Below, piece after piece: positions 19,315 through 23,177 of a stretch of 64,000 bases of DNA. This stretch comes from Mycobacterium sp. NBC_00419 (GTDB lineage Bacteria > Actinomycetota > Actinomycetes > Mycobacteriales > Mycobacteriaceae). Both the position numbers and the translations under genes were made by a program. Each line of letters starts with the position of its first letter. Position 1 is the first letter of the stretch. The stretch lies in assembly GCF_036023875.1 (NCBI RefSeq), contig NZ_CP107931.1:1798001-1862000 (forward strand), written 5' to 3'. The notes under the pieces were generated by a model. It saw only the letters and a list, made by a program, of their open reading frames with translations. It searched no databases and had not been told where the DNA came from.

Positions 19315-19770
19315 GTGTTAAAAGGCTTCAAGGAGTTCCTCTCCCGCGGCAACATCGTGGACCTGTCGGTCGCGGTGGTCATCGGCACCGCGTTCACCGC
19401 GCTCGTCACCAAGTTCACTGACAGCATTCTCCAGCCGCTGATCAACCGCATCGGGGCCGACAAAAACACCGAGTACGGCATCCTGCAGATCGACATCGGC
19501 GGCGGCCAGACCATCGACCTCAACGTCGTGCTGTCGGCGTTCATCAACTTCATCCTGGTCGCCGCGGTGGTCTACTTCCTGGTCGTCATGCCCTACAACC
19601 GGCTGCGCAAGAAGGGCGAGGTCGAGCAGGCCGACGACACCGAACTGGCGATCCTGACCGAGATCCGTGACCTGCTCGCCGACGCCAGCGGCACGGCCAA
19701 GCAGGTGACCGGCCCCGGCACCGGCCCGAGTCCTGACACCGCCAAGCACACCAGCGGCGATCGGGACTGA
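19315..19770 (+). CDS. mscL: Large-conductance mechanosensitive channel MscL
   Basis: 151 residues. The cytoplasmic start [31 protein letters not shown] is the conserved TM1 entry (residues 1-31). TM2 is [22 protein letters not shown], and the C-terminal helical bundle runs to about residue 125, followed by a Thr/Gly/Pro tail. It forms a pentameric safety valve opened by membrane tension on hypo-osmotic shock. GTG start behind AAAGGG. A strong hairpin follows. Confidence 0.97.
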
Positions 19771-19780
19771 TCCCACACAC

Positions 19781-19818
19781 ACAAAACGGCCCCCGGCGTG
19801 AGCCGGGGGCCGTTTTGT
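19781..19818. terminator. Bidirectional terminator between mscL and mspA
   Basis: A 17-bp perfect stem (arms 19781-19797 and 19802-19818) around a GTGA loop. It is GC-rich in the middle and flanked by AAAA and TTTT, so it carries a short U-tract in either direction. It separates the convergent mscL and porin genes. Confidence 0.92.
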
Positions 19819-19833
19819 CTGACGTGCAGGGAG

Positions 19834-20472
19834 TTAGTTCATGTTCCAGGGTTCGCCGTAGGTGGTGACGCTGTCACCGGCCTTGGAGATCAGGCGAGCG
19901 AAGGGGCGCAGCAGCACGCCGCCGGCCGCACCGGTGACGGTGCCGTGGGCATTCGCCACGGCCACCGAGCCGTTAGGGCCCTCGACGTCCACCGAGAAGG
20001 TGGCGACTTCCTGGATACCGGGGCCGTTGCCCAGGTCAGCGCTGATCGACACACCCGGGAACAGGTTCGGGGTGATGACCGAGCCCAGCGGGTTGAAACC
20101 CGTCGGGGAGATGTTCGCGTCATCCAGCAGGATGTTGGGGGTGGTGTAGCTGAAGTTGATACCCACACCCAGCGACCACGGGAAGCCAACCTGGTAGCCC
20201 AGCTCCAAGGTGCCCGCGAAGTCGTCGGCACCGGAGCCCACGACGCTGTAGACCGCCTTGCCGGAGTGGAACCACTCACGGGTCAGCCGGTTGCGGTCCA
20301 GGGGGAACACGCCATCGAGGAAGGTGTCCCACTGCTGAATCGTCAACGTACGGCCACCGCCGTCGACCAGACTCAACTGATTGTCCAAACCTGCGTGAGA
20401 GGTACCTGTCCCGACGAACATCGCCGCGACGGCGGCGACGAGGGCCACCAGTACCCGACCGATTACCTTCAT
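19834..20472 (-). CDS. mspA: MspA-type outer-membrane porin
   Basis: 212 residues. A signal peptide of about 27 residues (cleavage at SHA-GLDN) leads into a mature chain nearly identical in pattern to MspA: RTLTIQQWDTFLDGVFPLDRNR, GFPWSLGVGINFSYTTPN, VITPNLFPGVSISADLGNG and a C-terminal TTYGEPWNMN. The constriction-zone acidic pair is present in ILLDDANIS. MspA octamers form the main hydrophilic channel through the mycolate membrane, admitting sugars, phosphate and small drugs. Its presence argues against the tuberculosis complex. A small gene and a Crp site lie in the long upstream region. Confidence 0.96.
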   Translation of the reverse strand: MKVIGRVLVALVAAVAAMFVGTGTSHAGLDNQLSLVDGGGRTLTIQQWDTFLDGVFPLDRNRLTREWFHSGKAVYSVVGSGADDFAGTLELGYQVGFPWSLGVGINFSYTTPNILLDDANISPTGFNPLGSVITPNLFPGVSISADLGNGPGIQEVATFSVDVEGPNGSVAVANAHGTVTGAAGGVLLRPFARLISKAGDSVTTYGEPWNMN

Positions 20473-20846
20473 GTTCTCCCTAGCTATGTCGTCGGTGATC
20501 CCGGAGGAGGATCACCGAATTTGGTCCGTGCTCGGGTCCCAACATGCTGACACCGCACACTGCGTAGTGCAGATCAAATGAGAGTCCTCACACTCTGCTC
20601 TTACGCTTTGCTCATCGTTGACACGAGGAACATAACGGCACCGCATCGAGGCGGCAACGCATAGAGATGAGGTGCGCCGGATCGATGCTTGCAAGGCAAA
20701 GTTTGCTGGCGGGCGGTCCACGTCTCACAGGAATCCGCAGGCCCGAAGGCCAGCGGCAGTCGCCGGCAATGTGCTCGGATGACCTTCACGCGCGGCCCGC
20801 GACTCAAAATGGGGCGGCCGGGTCACCTGCCACCACCTGCAAGGCA
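20473..20846. other. Non-coding stretch between the small upstream gene and mspA
   Basis: 374 bases with no convincing ORF on either strand. In M. smegmatis the mspA promoter is known to lie about 500 bases upstream of the gene, giving a long leader. This stretch could be that leader's inner part. I see no clear promoter or terminator in it. Confidence 0.5.
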
Positions 20847-21002
20847 TTAATGGTGGTGTGGCGGAACGTTATCCCGCAGCCAGTCGTCACGGTCCGAGTC
20901 TTCGCCCCCGCCGTTCGGATCCCGTTCATCGGAGGACGCCTGCGGGAGTTCGGTACCGAAGATCTTGTTAACTGTGTTGCGGTCGTGGCGCTTGGCGTCC
21001 AT
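20847..21002 (-). CDS. Small acidic protein of 51 residues upstream of mspA
   Basis: Translation begins MDAKRHDRNTVNKIFG and ends DRDDWLRDNVPPHHH. It looks coding rather than random: it is strongly hydrophilic, has an ordered N-terminal basic segment, an acidic Gly/Ser/Asp middle and a Trp-containing end, and starts with ATG behind GGGGTG. No signal peptide or membrane helix. I do not recognise a characterised family. A perfect Crp palindrome ends 17 bases before the start. If the mspA transcript starts about 500 bases upstream, as in M. smegmatis, this gene would sit at the head of that transcript. Confidence 0.6.
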   Translation of the reverse strand: MDAKRHDRNTVNKIFGTELPQASSDERDPNGGGEDSDRDDWLRDNVPPHHH

Positions 21003-21018
21003 CACACCCCGTCCAAAT

Positions 21019-21034
21019 TGTGACTAAGATCACA
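21019..21034 (-). promoter_or_regulatory. Crp (cAMP receptor protein) binding site
   Basis: TGTGACTAAGATCACA: both half-sites TGTGA and TCACA are perfect with six bases between, matching the consensus of E. coli CRP and the mycobacterial Crp regulators. It lies just upstream of the 51-codon gene and about 550 bases upstream of mspA. Regulation by cAMP is inferred. Confidence 0.7.
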
Positions 21035-21153
21035 TTTGCTGCATTTGCCCAGTTCACAGACTTGTAACACAAGGGCTCCCAGCCGTATTACAACAACCTT
21101 AAGAAACGGTACGCCGAACGAACGGCGACCGCGGAATGACCAGAGAAGGCCGG

Positions 21154-21681
21154 TCAGATCTCCAGACTCGATAACTGACCGATGACATGGGCGGCCAGCG
21201 GATTCAACGTCGCCATGCCGTCGCGAACGGCGTAGCGCGACCCGGCGATGTTCACCACGAGCGTGCTGCCCGAGATCCCCACCAGCCCGCGGGACAGCCC
21301 GGCGTCGGTGATGCCGGCCGACAGGCCCGAGGCCCGCAGCGCCTCGGCGATGCCGAGCAGTTCGCGGTCGAGGATCGTGCGGGTGGCCTCCGGGGTCACG
21401 TCGCGCGGTGTCACCCCGGTGCCACCGACCGAAACCACCAGGTCAACGCCCCCGATGACGGCGGTGTTGAGCGCATTGCGGATCTCGATCTCGTCGGCCG
21501 AGACCACGACGACTCCGTCGACCACAAAGCCCGCCTCAGCGAGCAGTTCGGTGACCAACGGCCCACTGTGGTCCTGCTCGTCGCCGTGCGCTGTGCGGTC
21601 GTCGACAACGACGACGAGGGCACGGCCCACCAGCTCCCCTGGCTGTTCCATGGATCTCACCGTATATCCGGCGACCGACAT
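21154..21681 (-). CDS. moaB2: Molybdenum cofactor biosynthesis protein MoaB2 (MogA/MoaB family)
   Basis: 175 residues. MoCF-domain signatures are LVVVVDDRTAHGDEQDHSGPL and VDLVVSVGGTGVTPRDVTPEAT (the GGTG molybdopterin-binding loop), then ASGLSAGITDAGLSRGLVGIS. It would adenylylate or hold molybdopterin during cofactor assembly. Start chosen at ATG 21681 by comparison with M. tuberculosis Rv0984; a GTG at 21735 overlapping the pepD stop would lengthen it by 18 residues. Downstream of pepD in the same direction, as in M. tuberculosis. Confidence 0.88.
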   Translation of the reverse strand: MSVAGYTVRSMEQPGELVGRALVVVVDDRTAHGDEQDHSGPLVTELLAEAGFVVDGVVVVSADEIEIRNALNTAVIGGVDLVVSVGGTGVTPRDVTPEATRTILDRELLGIAEALRASGLSAGITDAGLSRGLVGISGSTLVVNIAGSRYAVRDGMATLNPLAAHVIGQLSSLEI

Positions 21682-21731
21682 CGCGGCAGTCGCATCGGCC
21701 CGTGTCACGGGAAGTTCACCCACGACGCGGA

Positions 21732-23177
21732 TCACTGGGCGGCCTTGCCGAGCGTGACCTGCACCGTCTTGTCCCCGCCGGCGGGCGCGATGTAGGTCAG
21801 CGTGACCTTGTCACCGGGAGCCCGCGACCGGACGGCGGCGACCAGCGCATCGGCACTGCCGATGACCCGGTCGTCGACCTTGGTGACGACCACCCCGCTG
21901 GGCAGGCCGGCGGTATCGGCTGCACCCCCCTTGGTGACGTCGACGATCTTGGCGCCGTGGGTGGTGGTGTCGTTGCTGACCTGCACGCCCAGGGACGCGT
22001 GCGAGGCGGTGCCGGTACTGATCAGCTCGTCGGCGATGCGCTTGGCCTGGTCCACCGGGATGGCGAAGCCCAGACCGATCGAACCACTCTGGGCGTCCGG
22101 CGAGTCGCCGCCGATGGTGGCGATCGCCGAGTTCACGCCGACGAGCTCACCGGCCATGTTCACCAGCGCTCCGCCGGAGTTACCGGGGTTGATCGCCGCA
22201 TCCGTCTGGATGGCGTCGAGCACGGTGTTCTGGTTCTTGACGTCACCGCCGGTGGCCACCGGGCGGTTCAGCGCGCTCACGATGCCGGTGGTGACGGTGC
22301 CTTCCAGGCCCAGCGGCGAGCCGATCGCCACCACGTCCTGGCCGACCCGCAGGTTGGCCGACGAACCCAGGGTGATGGGGGTCAGCCCGGAGATGCCCTG
22401 AACGCGCACGACGGCGATATCGCTGGCGGGATCGGTGCCCACCACGGTGAACGGCGCGGTGCGGCCGTCGGCGAAGGTGACCGTCGTGGTCGGGGCGCCA
22501 CCTGGGGCCGCGCCACCGGGTCCACCGGGTCCGCCGGGCCCGCCAGGGGCACCGGGGGCTCCGGGGGCTCCGGGCAGACCCGGGATGATCGGCGGTGCGG
22601 CAGGCGCGCCGCCCGGGCCTTTGTCCATCGCCGCGGCAACGACGTGGTTATTGGTCAGGATCAGCCCGTCGGAGGACAGGATGATGCCCGAGCCCTCCTC
22701 GGACTGGCGGCCGAACTCGGTCTCGAGCTTGACCACACTGGGCACCACCTTGGCGGCGACCTGCTCCACCGAGCCGACCGGAAGGTTGGCGGCCGGCACG
22801 TTGGCCGGGCCGTTGGGCGCCGCGCCGGTGACGCTGGTGACCGGCTGGTGGTCCGGGTGGGCCAGCAGCACCACGGTGCCGCCGATACCCGCCGACACCA
22901 CGGCGATCGCGAGCGCACCCGCGGTCAGGGCGCCCGCACGCGAGCGCTGCCGGGCGGGCTGCAGCACCGGCCCGGTAGCCGGATTACCTTGGCGGAGAGC
23001 GGCATACGGGTCGTAGGGCTGCCGATACTGCGGCTGCTGCTGCTGAGTGGCGTAGCGCCAGTCGTACTGCTGCTGATAACCGGCCTGAGGGTGCTGGGAA
23101 TACCCCGGCGCCGCATGCGGATTCGGCGTCGTGTGGCCGGGCTGCTGCGGCGGCGTGTACCTCGAGTGGTCGGTCAT
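21732..23177 (-). CDS. pepD: HtrA-like serine protease PepD with collagen-like insertion
   Basis: 481 residues. A Gln/Tyr/Pro-rich cytosolic N-terminus (1-80) precedes one membrane helix (LTAGALAIAVVSAGIGGTVV), an extracytoplasmic trypsin-like domain and a C-terminal PDZ domain (SLGVQVSNDTTTHGAKIVDV). The triad is His in LTNNHVV (near 178), Asp in DPASDIAVV (near 254) and Ser in INPGNSGGALV (near 333). Between His and Asp lies a Gly-X-Y stretch of about 34 residues. PepD degrades misfolded envelope proteins and is under MprAB control in M. tuberculosis; an MprA box precedes it here. Confidence 0.93.
   Translation of the reverse strand: MTDHSRYTPPQQPGHTTPNPHAAPGYSQHPQAGYQQQYDWRYATQQQQPQYRQPYDPYAALRQGNPATGPVLQPARQRSRAGALTAGALAIAVVSAGIGGTVVLLAHPDHQPVTSVTGAAPNGPANVPAANLPVGSVEQVAAKVVPSVVKLETEFGRQSEEGSGIILSSDGLILTNNHVVAAAMDKGPGGAPAAPPIIPGLPGAPGAPGAPGGPGGPGGPGGAAPGGAPTTTVTFADGRTAPFTVVGTDPASDIAVVRVQGISGLTPITLGSSANLRVGQDVVAIGSPLGLEGTVTTGIVSALNRPVATGGDVKNQNTVLDAIQTDAAINPGNSGGALVNMAGELVGVNSAIATIGGDSPDAQSGSIGLGFAIPVDQAKRIADELISTGTASHASLGVQVSNDTTTHGAKIVDVTKGGAADTAGLPSGVVVTKVDDRVIGSADALVAAVRSRAPGDKVTLTYIAPAGGDKTVQVTLGKAAQ

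Follow-up and report, generated by a model that had tools for sequence, protein, structure and literature searches.

A short open reading frame (ORF) with a perfect Crp-type palindrome in front of it lies upstream of an mspA-type porin gene in Mycobacterium sp. NBC_00419, raising the question of whether it is a gene in its own right or part of the leader of the porin transcript. We addressed this question by comparative analysis of the surrounding 64,000 nucleotides of the genome (hereafter, the window) and of related loci. The minus strand of the window reads, in order, mprB-pepD-moaB2-[small ORF]-mspA, where the names moaB2, pepD and mprB are presumed from the usual mycobacterial gene order. 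The small ORF (20847–21002, minus strand) runs from an ATG at 21002 to a stop codon ending at 20847 and encodes 51 amino acids; an in-frame GTG at 21005, one codon before the ATG, offers an alternative start, and GGGG (21010–21007) lies ahead of the start. Directly upstream is the moaB2-like gene (21154–21735, minus strand; PF00994), and 374 nt separate the stop of the small ORF from the ATG of the porin gene at 20472 (19834–20472, minus strand; NF053716, 387.8 bits; PF09203), which is followed by a convergent mscL gene (19315–19770, plus strand; PF01741). A previous sequence-only reading had placed an unannotated 51-codon ORF with ATG and GGGGTG ahead of mspA on the same strand; we found the ORF as it was described, and the word 'unannotated' holds in part, several relatives having been deposited as 'hypothetical protein'. 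The genome also carries 3 further full-length mspA-like genes (G000:C1:1525457, 2545891 and 4168775; 97, 95 and 77% identical), and the regions upstream of 2 of these extra genes are little like that of mspA, save for the last bases before the start.

A protein database search with the small ORF returned 122 proteins at E ≤ 10, one of them the window's own, and the 120 relatives listed all matched at E ≤ 1.7e-4. In an alignment of 42 chosen relatives (A1), 8 residues (W, D, N, V, P, P, H and H) are invariant. Over the last 41 codons, the median dN/dS was 0.18 for 395 pairs of loci, compared with 1.4 and 2.0 in the shifted frames; the pairs, 75–99% identical, were drawn from 97 distinct sequences and are not independent, and 3 sequences with a stop within the fixed stretch were dropped. 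Of 8,815 nucleotide changes, 5,168 fell at third codon positions. Because dN/dS is low relative to the shifted frames, the frame appears to be constrained as a protein, and comparison among the loci confirms the small ORF as a sequence feature under selection that behaves as a real protein-coding gene. The small gene claimed in the sequence-only reading is thus borne out by its relatives and by purifying selection, the homologues and the synonymous bias proposed there as checks having both been found. As for frame-breaking changes in relatives, named there as evidence against a gene, the frame is constrained overall, and one carrier genome (G366, locus L186) has an in-frame stop close to the start of the small gene.

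The protein belongs, as judged from profile searches, to an old, large and unnamed family of actinobacterial small proteins with the consensus [VI]FGD.LP.TT.DERD ... WLR..VPPHHG. Scored against a broad profile (A5) whose 20 rows include other genera, 5,719 of 7,991 candidates matched at E ≤ 1e-5, and five positions (P20, D25, P47, P48 and H49) are invariant among those rows. The window ORF matches A5 at E 3.2e-21, though it is itself a row of the profile; independent support for the family comes from the single-sequence search and from the mycobacterial profile A1, which finds members in other genera at E values as low as 5e-14. Furthermore, the window ORF carries the C-terminal W-LR-x2-VPPHH and the DE motif that were used as a test of membership. 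Within the taxonomic family of the window, presumably Mycobacteriaceae, 55 of the 61 sampled genomes matched at E ≤ 0.01, as did 30 of the 31 genera, with one match apiece, the weakest at 0.004, although some of these sampled genomes had supplied rows of the broad profile. The narrower profile, at E ≤ 0.001, found a match in 268 of the 396 genus genomes and, at E ≤ 0.01, in 55 of 296 genomes of the class, 14 of these 55 being within the genus.

Known families and structures gave little to identify the protein by. Among the best 120 of the 5,719 broad-profile matches, every named protein is a 'hypothetical protein'. Neither Pfam nor NCBIfam contained a family above cut-off for the small ORF or for 5 distant members, and the sole Pfam match among the 42 A1 relatives was DUF1138, to one row (E 0.057). 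The best match in a PDB search was a de novo design (E 0.17). The AlphaFold model is mostly of low confidence (mean pLDDT 69, pTM 0.25), with helices at residues 8–15 and 34–45. An RNA family was considered as another reading of the region and rejected, with just 5 matches at E ≤ 1, every one below the gathering score. A literature search on the C-terminal motif found no paper, and the small gene is not mentioned in the titles and examined passages of the related literature.

To place the gene in its genomic context, we compared its neighbours across genomes. Of 80 loci, 79 have moaB2 upstream in the same orientation. Where the sequence extends 650 nt or more beyond the ORF (62 loci), 44 have mspA in the same orientation no more than 600 nt behind it. 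No mspA lies behind the ORF in the remaining 18, mainly Mycolicibacter-type loci plus one Nocardioidaceae metagenome-assembled genome (MAG); the MAG excepted, the small gene in these porin-less loci sits directly behind moaB2. In other genera, we surveyed 20 stretches chosen from 41 narrow-profile matches outside the genus. Within 14 of these stretches there was an mscL, which in 10 (L147–L151, L156, L162–L165) was the direct tail-to-tail neighbour of the small gene; 4 (L152, L153, L155, L161) had moaB2 upstream in the same orientation, and L154 had it on the opposite strand. The window shows the same moaB2/mscL neighbourhood, and 14 of the 20 other-genus loci have either tail-to-tail mscL or same-strand upstream moaB2; the other 6 have neither, and around the weak matches L157–L160 there was a Zn-ribbon gene alone or none of these neighbours. 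A porin match was found in a single stretch (L155), behind the small gene, at 41% identity. Five upstream genes were tested: four encode LytR-CpsA-Psr (LCP) proteins (L147, L150, L151, L163; one genus, which the names of the listed matches suggest is Nocardioides), and the one in L156 encodes an epimerase. Because the gene adjoins mscL or moaB2 in other genera, we conclude from gene order that it predates its association with mspA.

We next asked whether gene and porin occur together. Among 80 author-chosen carrier genomes, 45 had MspA and 35 did not; the 36 carriers whose ORF match reached E ≤ 1e-14 all had MspA, as did 9 of the 44 whose match was weaker. Of the 128 genomes of the genus without the gene, 80 were tested for MspA, and 76 had no match; the close matches in the other 4 were partial, one of these genomes having in addition a distant full-length match (34%). 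The comparison thus reveals a joint absence, and the association proposed in the sequence-only reading, in which the small gene and the Crp-type site go with the porin, is upheld. In 17 non-carriers, 16 of which are genomes of 1–2 contigs, moaB2 could be located, and an mscL match was visible in 16. The moaB2-mscL gap in those 16 spans −2 to 164 nt and contains neither the palindrome nor the downstream promoter motif described below. Likewise, a broad-profile search of 50 non-carriers gave matches at E ≤ 1 in 33 genomes (best 0.001, next 0.011) and no clear copy. The genomes without the small gene appear to be mainly slow growers; a passage of PMC6386362 states that mspA occurs in fast growers only. 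Because the loci are related, the presence and absence classes may reflect few evolutionary events. At one locus (L183, genome G075, 3.3 Mb), the moaB2 match has two in-frame stops, which suggests gene decay.

The explanation that we favour, and consider fairly probable, is that the small gene has its own promoter within a Crp-type operator at which it is repressed, that mspA has a separate promoter, and that the small protein acts in trans in a role related to the cell envelope. The small gene would have kept its place between moaB2 and mscL, where mspA also sits in porin-bearing mycobacteria. The protein, small, acidic and largely flexible, would bind a partner through its conserved C-terminal tail; the envelope role is a best guess drawn from the envelope-associated neighbours, mscL, the LCP genes and mspA.

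The evidence for an operator comes from the palindrome TGTGATCTTAGTCACA (21019–21034, minus strand), which ends 16 bases before the ATG of the small ORF. It is the sole perfect TGTGA-N6-TCACA in the window (expected 0.03), and the genome (5.6 Mb) has 7 such sites compared with 1 match to the reversed control pattern. With up to 2 mismatches allowed, a site precedes the conserved Trp codon in 81 of 100 distinct loci, at 152 nt (64 loci), 153 nt (11) or 144 nt (6), and occurs in 54 of 55 porin loci, all 7 loci too short to be classified and none of the 18 porin-less loci. The perfect palindrome reported before the ORF in the sequence-only reading is therefore not only present but conserved. In 65 non-redundant loci its arms are 92–100% conserved, compared with a mean of 0.42 and a maximum of 0.77 over 39 flanking columns. 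This conservation of TGTGA-N6-TCACA across orthologous loci is what a Crp operator is expected to display, and the site is a candidate for one. M. smegmatis cydAB has sites of the same type upstream, one at −58 to −73 and another at −86 to −101, and induction is reported in the title of the paper describing it (PMC7739888, as far as its title and available passages go), whereas the site described here appears to overlap a −10 element.

The overlap is suggested by an asymmetric TT at core positions 7–8 (65/65 and 63/65 loci), which by eye is missing from the genome's 6 other palindromes. A candidate −10 element, GATCTT preceded by TGT, would lie in the left arm (21026–21031, minus strand), with a predicted start near 21019; a consensus scanner (threshold 9 of 12) reported no promoter anywhere in 19700–21200, this candidate included. 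A start codon is in place in 62 of the loci and absent in 3; in 48 of the 62, a Shine-Dalgarno-like motif lies between the site and the start, compared with 47% in shuffles. Because the asymmetric core fits an overlapping −10, Crp would more likely repress the small gene than drive the porin: cAMP-Crp bound at the operator would compete with RNA polymerase. The Crp-type site is likely to be linked to the small gene. That the palindrome might instead be a mere promoter element or an RNA hairpin is suggested by 6 Mycobacteroides-type loci in which the left arm TGTGACCTT is kept and the right arm decays. However, the right arm TCACA is 98–100% conserved in the 65 non-redundant loci and the site matches the M. 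smegmatis Crp consensus given in the available part of PMC7739888, and we consider this alternative unlikely.

A second element, the direct repeat GTTA..N5..GTGAAC with an 11-bp period (21052–21069, minus strand), stands at a fixed spacing from the palindrome. Among porin loci, 32 of 55 carry its strict pattern, and none of the 18 porin-less loci does. The RegX3- and MtrA-type repeats described in passages of PMC7884335 and PMC6265350 are similar in that a direct repeat of 11-bp period lies upstream of an inferred promoter, and the complement of the window repeat, GTTCAC-N5-TGTAAC, resembles RegX3 or MtrA boxes. In contrast to those, the degenerate motif GTTAMN6GTKAAC occurs just once in the genome, and a RegX3 or MtrA regulon was rejected on account of this uniqueness.

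The porin gene appears to have a promoter of its own. Between the small ORF and mspA lies a promoter-like element, TTGCCG-N17-TATGTT (20629–20657, minus strand), with a predicted start near 20622. Leader comparison showed that the pattern TTGC[CT]G-N17-TA[TC]GTT is conserved in 58 of 75 distinct leaders, the window included, and a looser pattern in 69 of 75, these leaders being related; the strict pattern was found in 0 of 20 mononucleotide-shuffled leader sets. The two hexamers agree with the sigma-70 consensus at 8 of 12 positions, one below the scanner's threshold. At the M. fortuitum porM1 locus (PMC2651896, in the passages available), the predicted −10 is likewise TATGTT, and a molybdopterin-synthesis-like ORF and mscL lie by the porin; unlike here, the further ORFs named there are two complete ones and a partial third, and the small gene is not among them. 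Because this conserved element lies downstream of the ORF, mspA probably starts at it, and TTGCCG-N17-TATGTT is probably the main, sigma-A-like, mspA promoter. Just past the predicted start, a four-codon mini-ORF, ATG-AGC-AAA-GCG-TAA in the window (20601–20615, minus strand), follows the form ATG-AGY-NNN-NNN-TAA in 59 of 63 leaders, counted among those matching a slightly wider promoter pattern, with 12 leaders dropped. Single leader sequences fold more stably than shuffles (z −2.0 to −3.3, 6 sequences), and the consensus fold of 33 sequences is weak (−0.11 kcal/mol). A conserved leader hairpin is a possibility: in 22 sequences of one clade, 92.7% of cells are paired compared with 24–58% when the structure is slid, and covariation is slight (1 pair has changed on both sides, a count that 270 of 500 shuffles also attain). 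In one clade, the mini-ORF stop falls in the 5' arm of this possible hairpin.

With mspA probably having a separate promoter, the small gene is probably more than a leader of the porin. A decidedly doubtful alternative is that one cAMP-Crp-controlled transcript carries both genes, the ORF being a regulatory upstream ORF of mspA. The moaB2-ORF-mspA order and the restriction of the palindrome to loci that either have mspA or are too short to be classified would suit such a transcript, and the conserved VPPHH just ahead of the stop might resemble a stalling peptide. Neither of two terminator-like sites in the region exceeds shuffles; the site that separates the ORF from mspA is weak, so that transcription from further upstream could run on into mspA. 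Against a single transcript stand the promoter-like element after the ORF, the 374-nt distance to the mspA start and the family members that lie tail-to-tail with mscL in other genera. A leader peptide would be expected only upstream of the gene it regulates; the small gene occurs in carriers without MspA and in other genera, and relatives with no porin behind them weaken the stalling reading. Furthermore, deletion of crp1 in M. smegmatis brought no significant change in mspA mRNA, according to a passage of PMC12713383. The interpretation in the sequence-only reading accordingly stands in part: the gene is real, the Crp-type site is conserved and both go with the porin. The proposal that the long leader of mspA encodes the small protein, with Crp linking porin expression to cAMP, is not supported, given the separate promoter-like element, the carriers without MspA (with a porin match in 1 of 20 other-genus stretches) and the crp1 result, and it is unlikely that the gene and the site are tied to mspA transcription in that way.

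Within the coding sequence, AGTTAAC (20967–20973, minus strand) is conserved at synonymous positions. Codons 10–12 of the small ORF read ..A-GTT-AAC, and the first two end in A or T in 97% and 90% of 70 non-redundant loci, compared with expected values of 13% and 8%; in the neighbouring genes, 6% of Val codons are GTT. The motif is absent from Mycobacteroides-type rows and lies about 500 nt before the mspA start. It may be an overlapping nucleic-acid element that the favoured explanation does not account for; as a sigma-A −10 or −35 it was rejected, lacking both a TANNNT and a partner at the right spacing. That Crp activates a class I promoter starting inside the ORF at AGTTAAC, giving mspA a non-coding leader of about 500 nt, would fit the synonymous constraint at these neighbouring codons, the mspA start some 500 nt upstream given in the sequence-only reading and a palindrome distance like that of the −58 to −73 cydA site (PMC7739888, available part), but is very unlikely, as AGTTAAC does not fit TANNNT, Mycobacteroides-type loci without it retain the left arm of the palindrome and mspA mRNA is unchanged by crp1 deletion (PMC12713383, passage cited above).

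Returning to the favoured explanation, in which a repressible small gene precedes a separately transcribed porin gene, a close mycobacterial precedent is the set of conserved small upstream ORFs described in passages of PMC4633059, which are likewise small, unannotated, located 5' of an annotated gene and conserved between species. The gene described here differs from them in that a short leader with a ribosome-binding site is predicted, rather than leaderless translation, in that it occurs in other genera without the downstream gene, and in that a separate promoter-like element follows it. A wider reading, which is rather improbable, is that the protein is a near-core actinobacterial envelope protein that came under cAMP control through promoter/operator overlap in porin-bearing mycobacteria, with AGTTAAC as a second signal, at the nucleic-acid level, within its coding sequence.

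For the control of mspA, these results put forward a best sequence candidate for the promoter, some 155 nt ahead of the mspA ATG, with a conserved ORF of four codons after it. The small gene adjoining mspA, present in most sampled genomes of its taxonomic family and in thousands of sequence clusters, matched no model in Pfam or NCBIfam. The joint absence of the small gene and the porin in many mycobacteria provides a lead on differences in outer-membrane permeability, and if the near-core envelope reading were true, this joint absence would mark one unit controlling envelope permeability.
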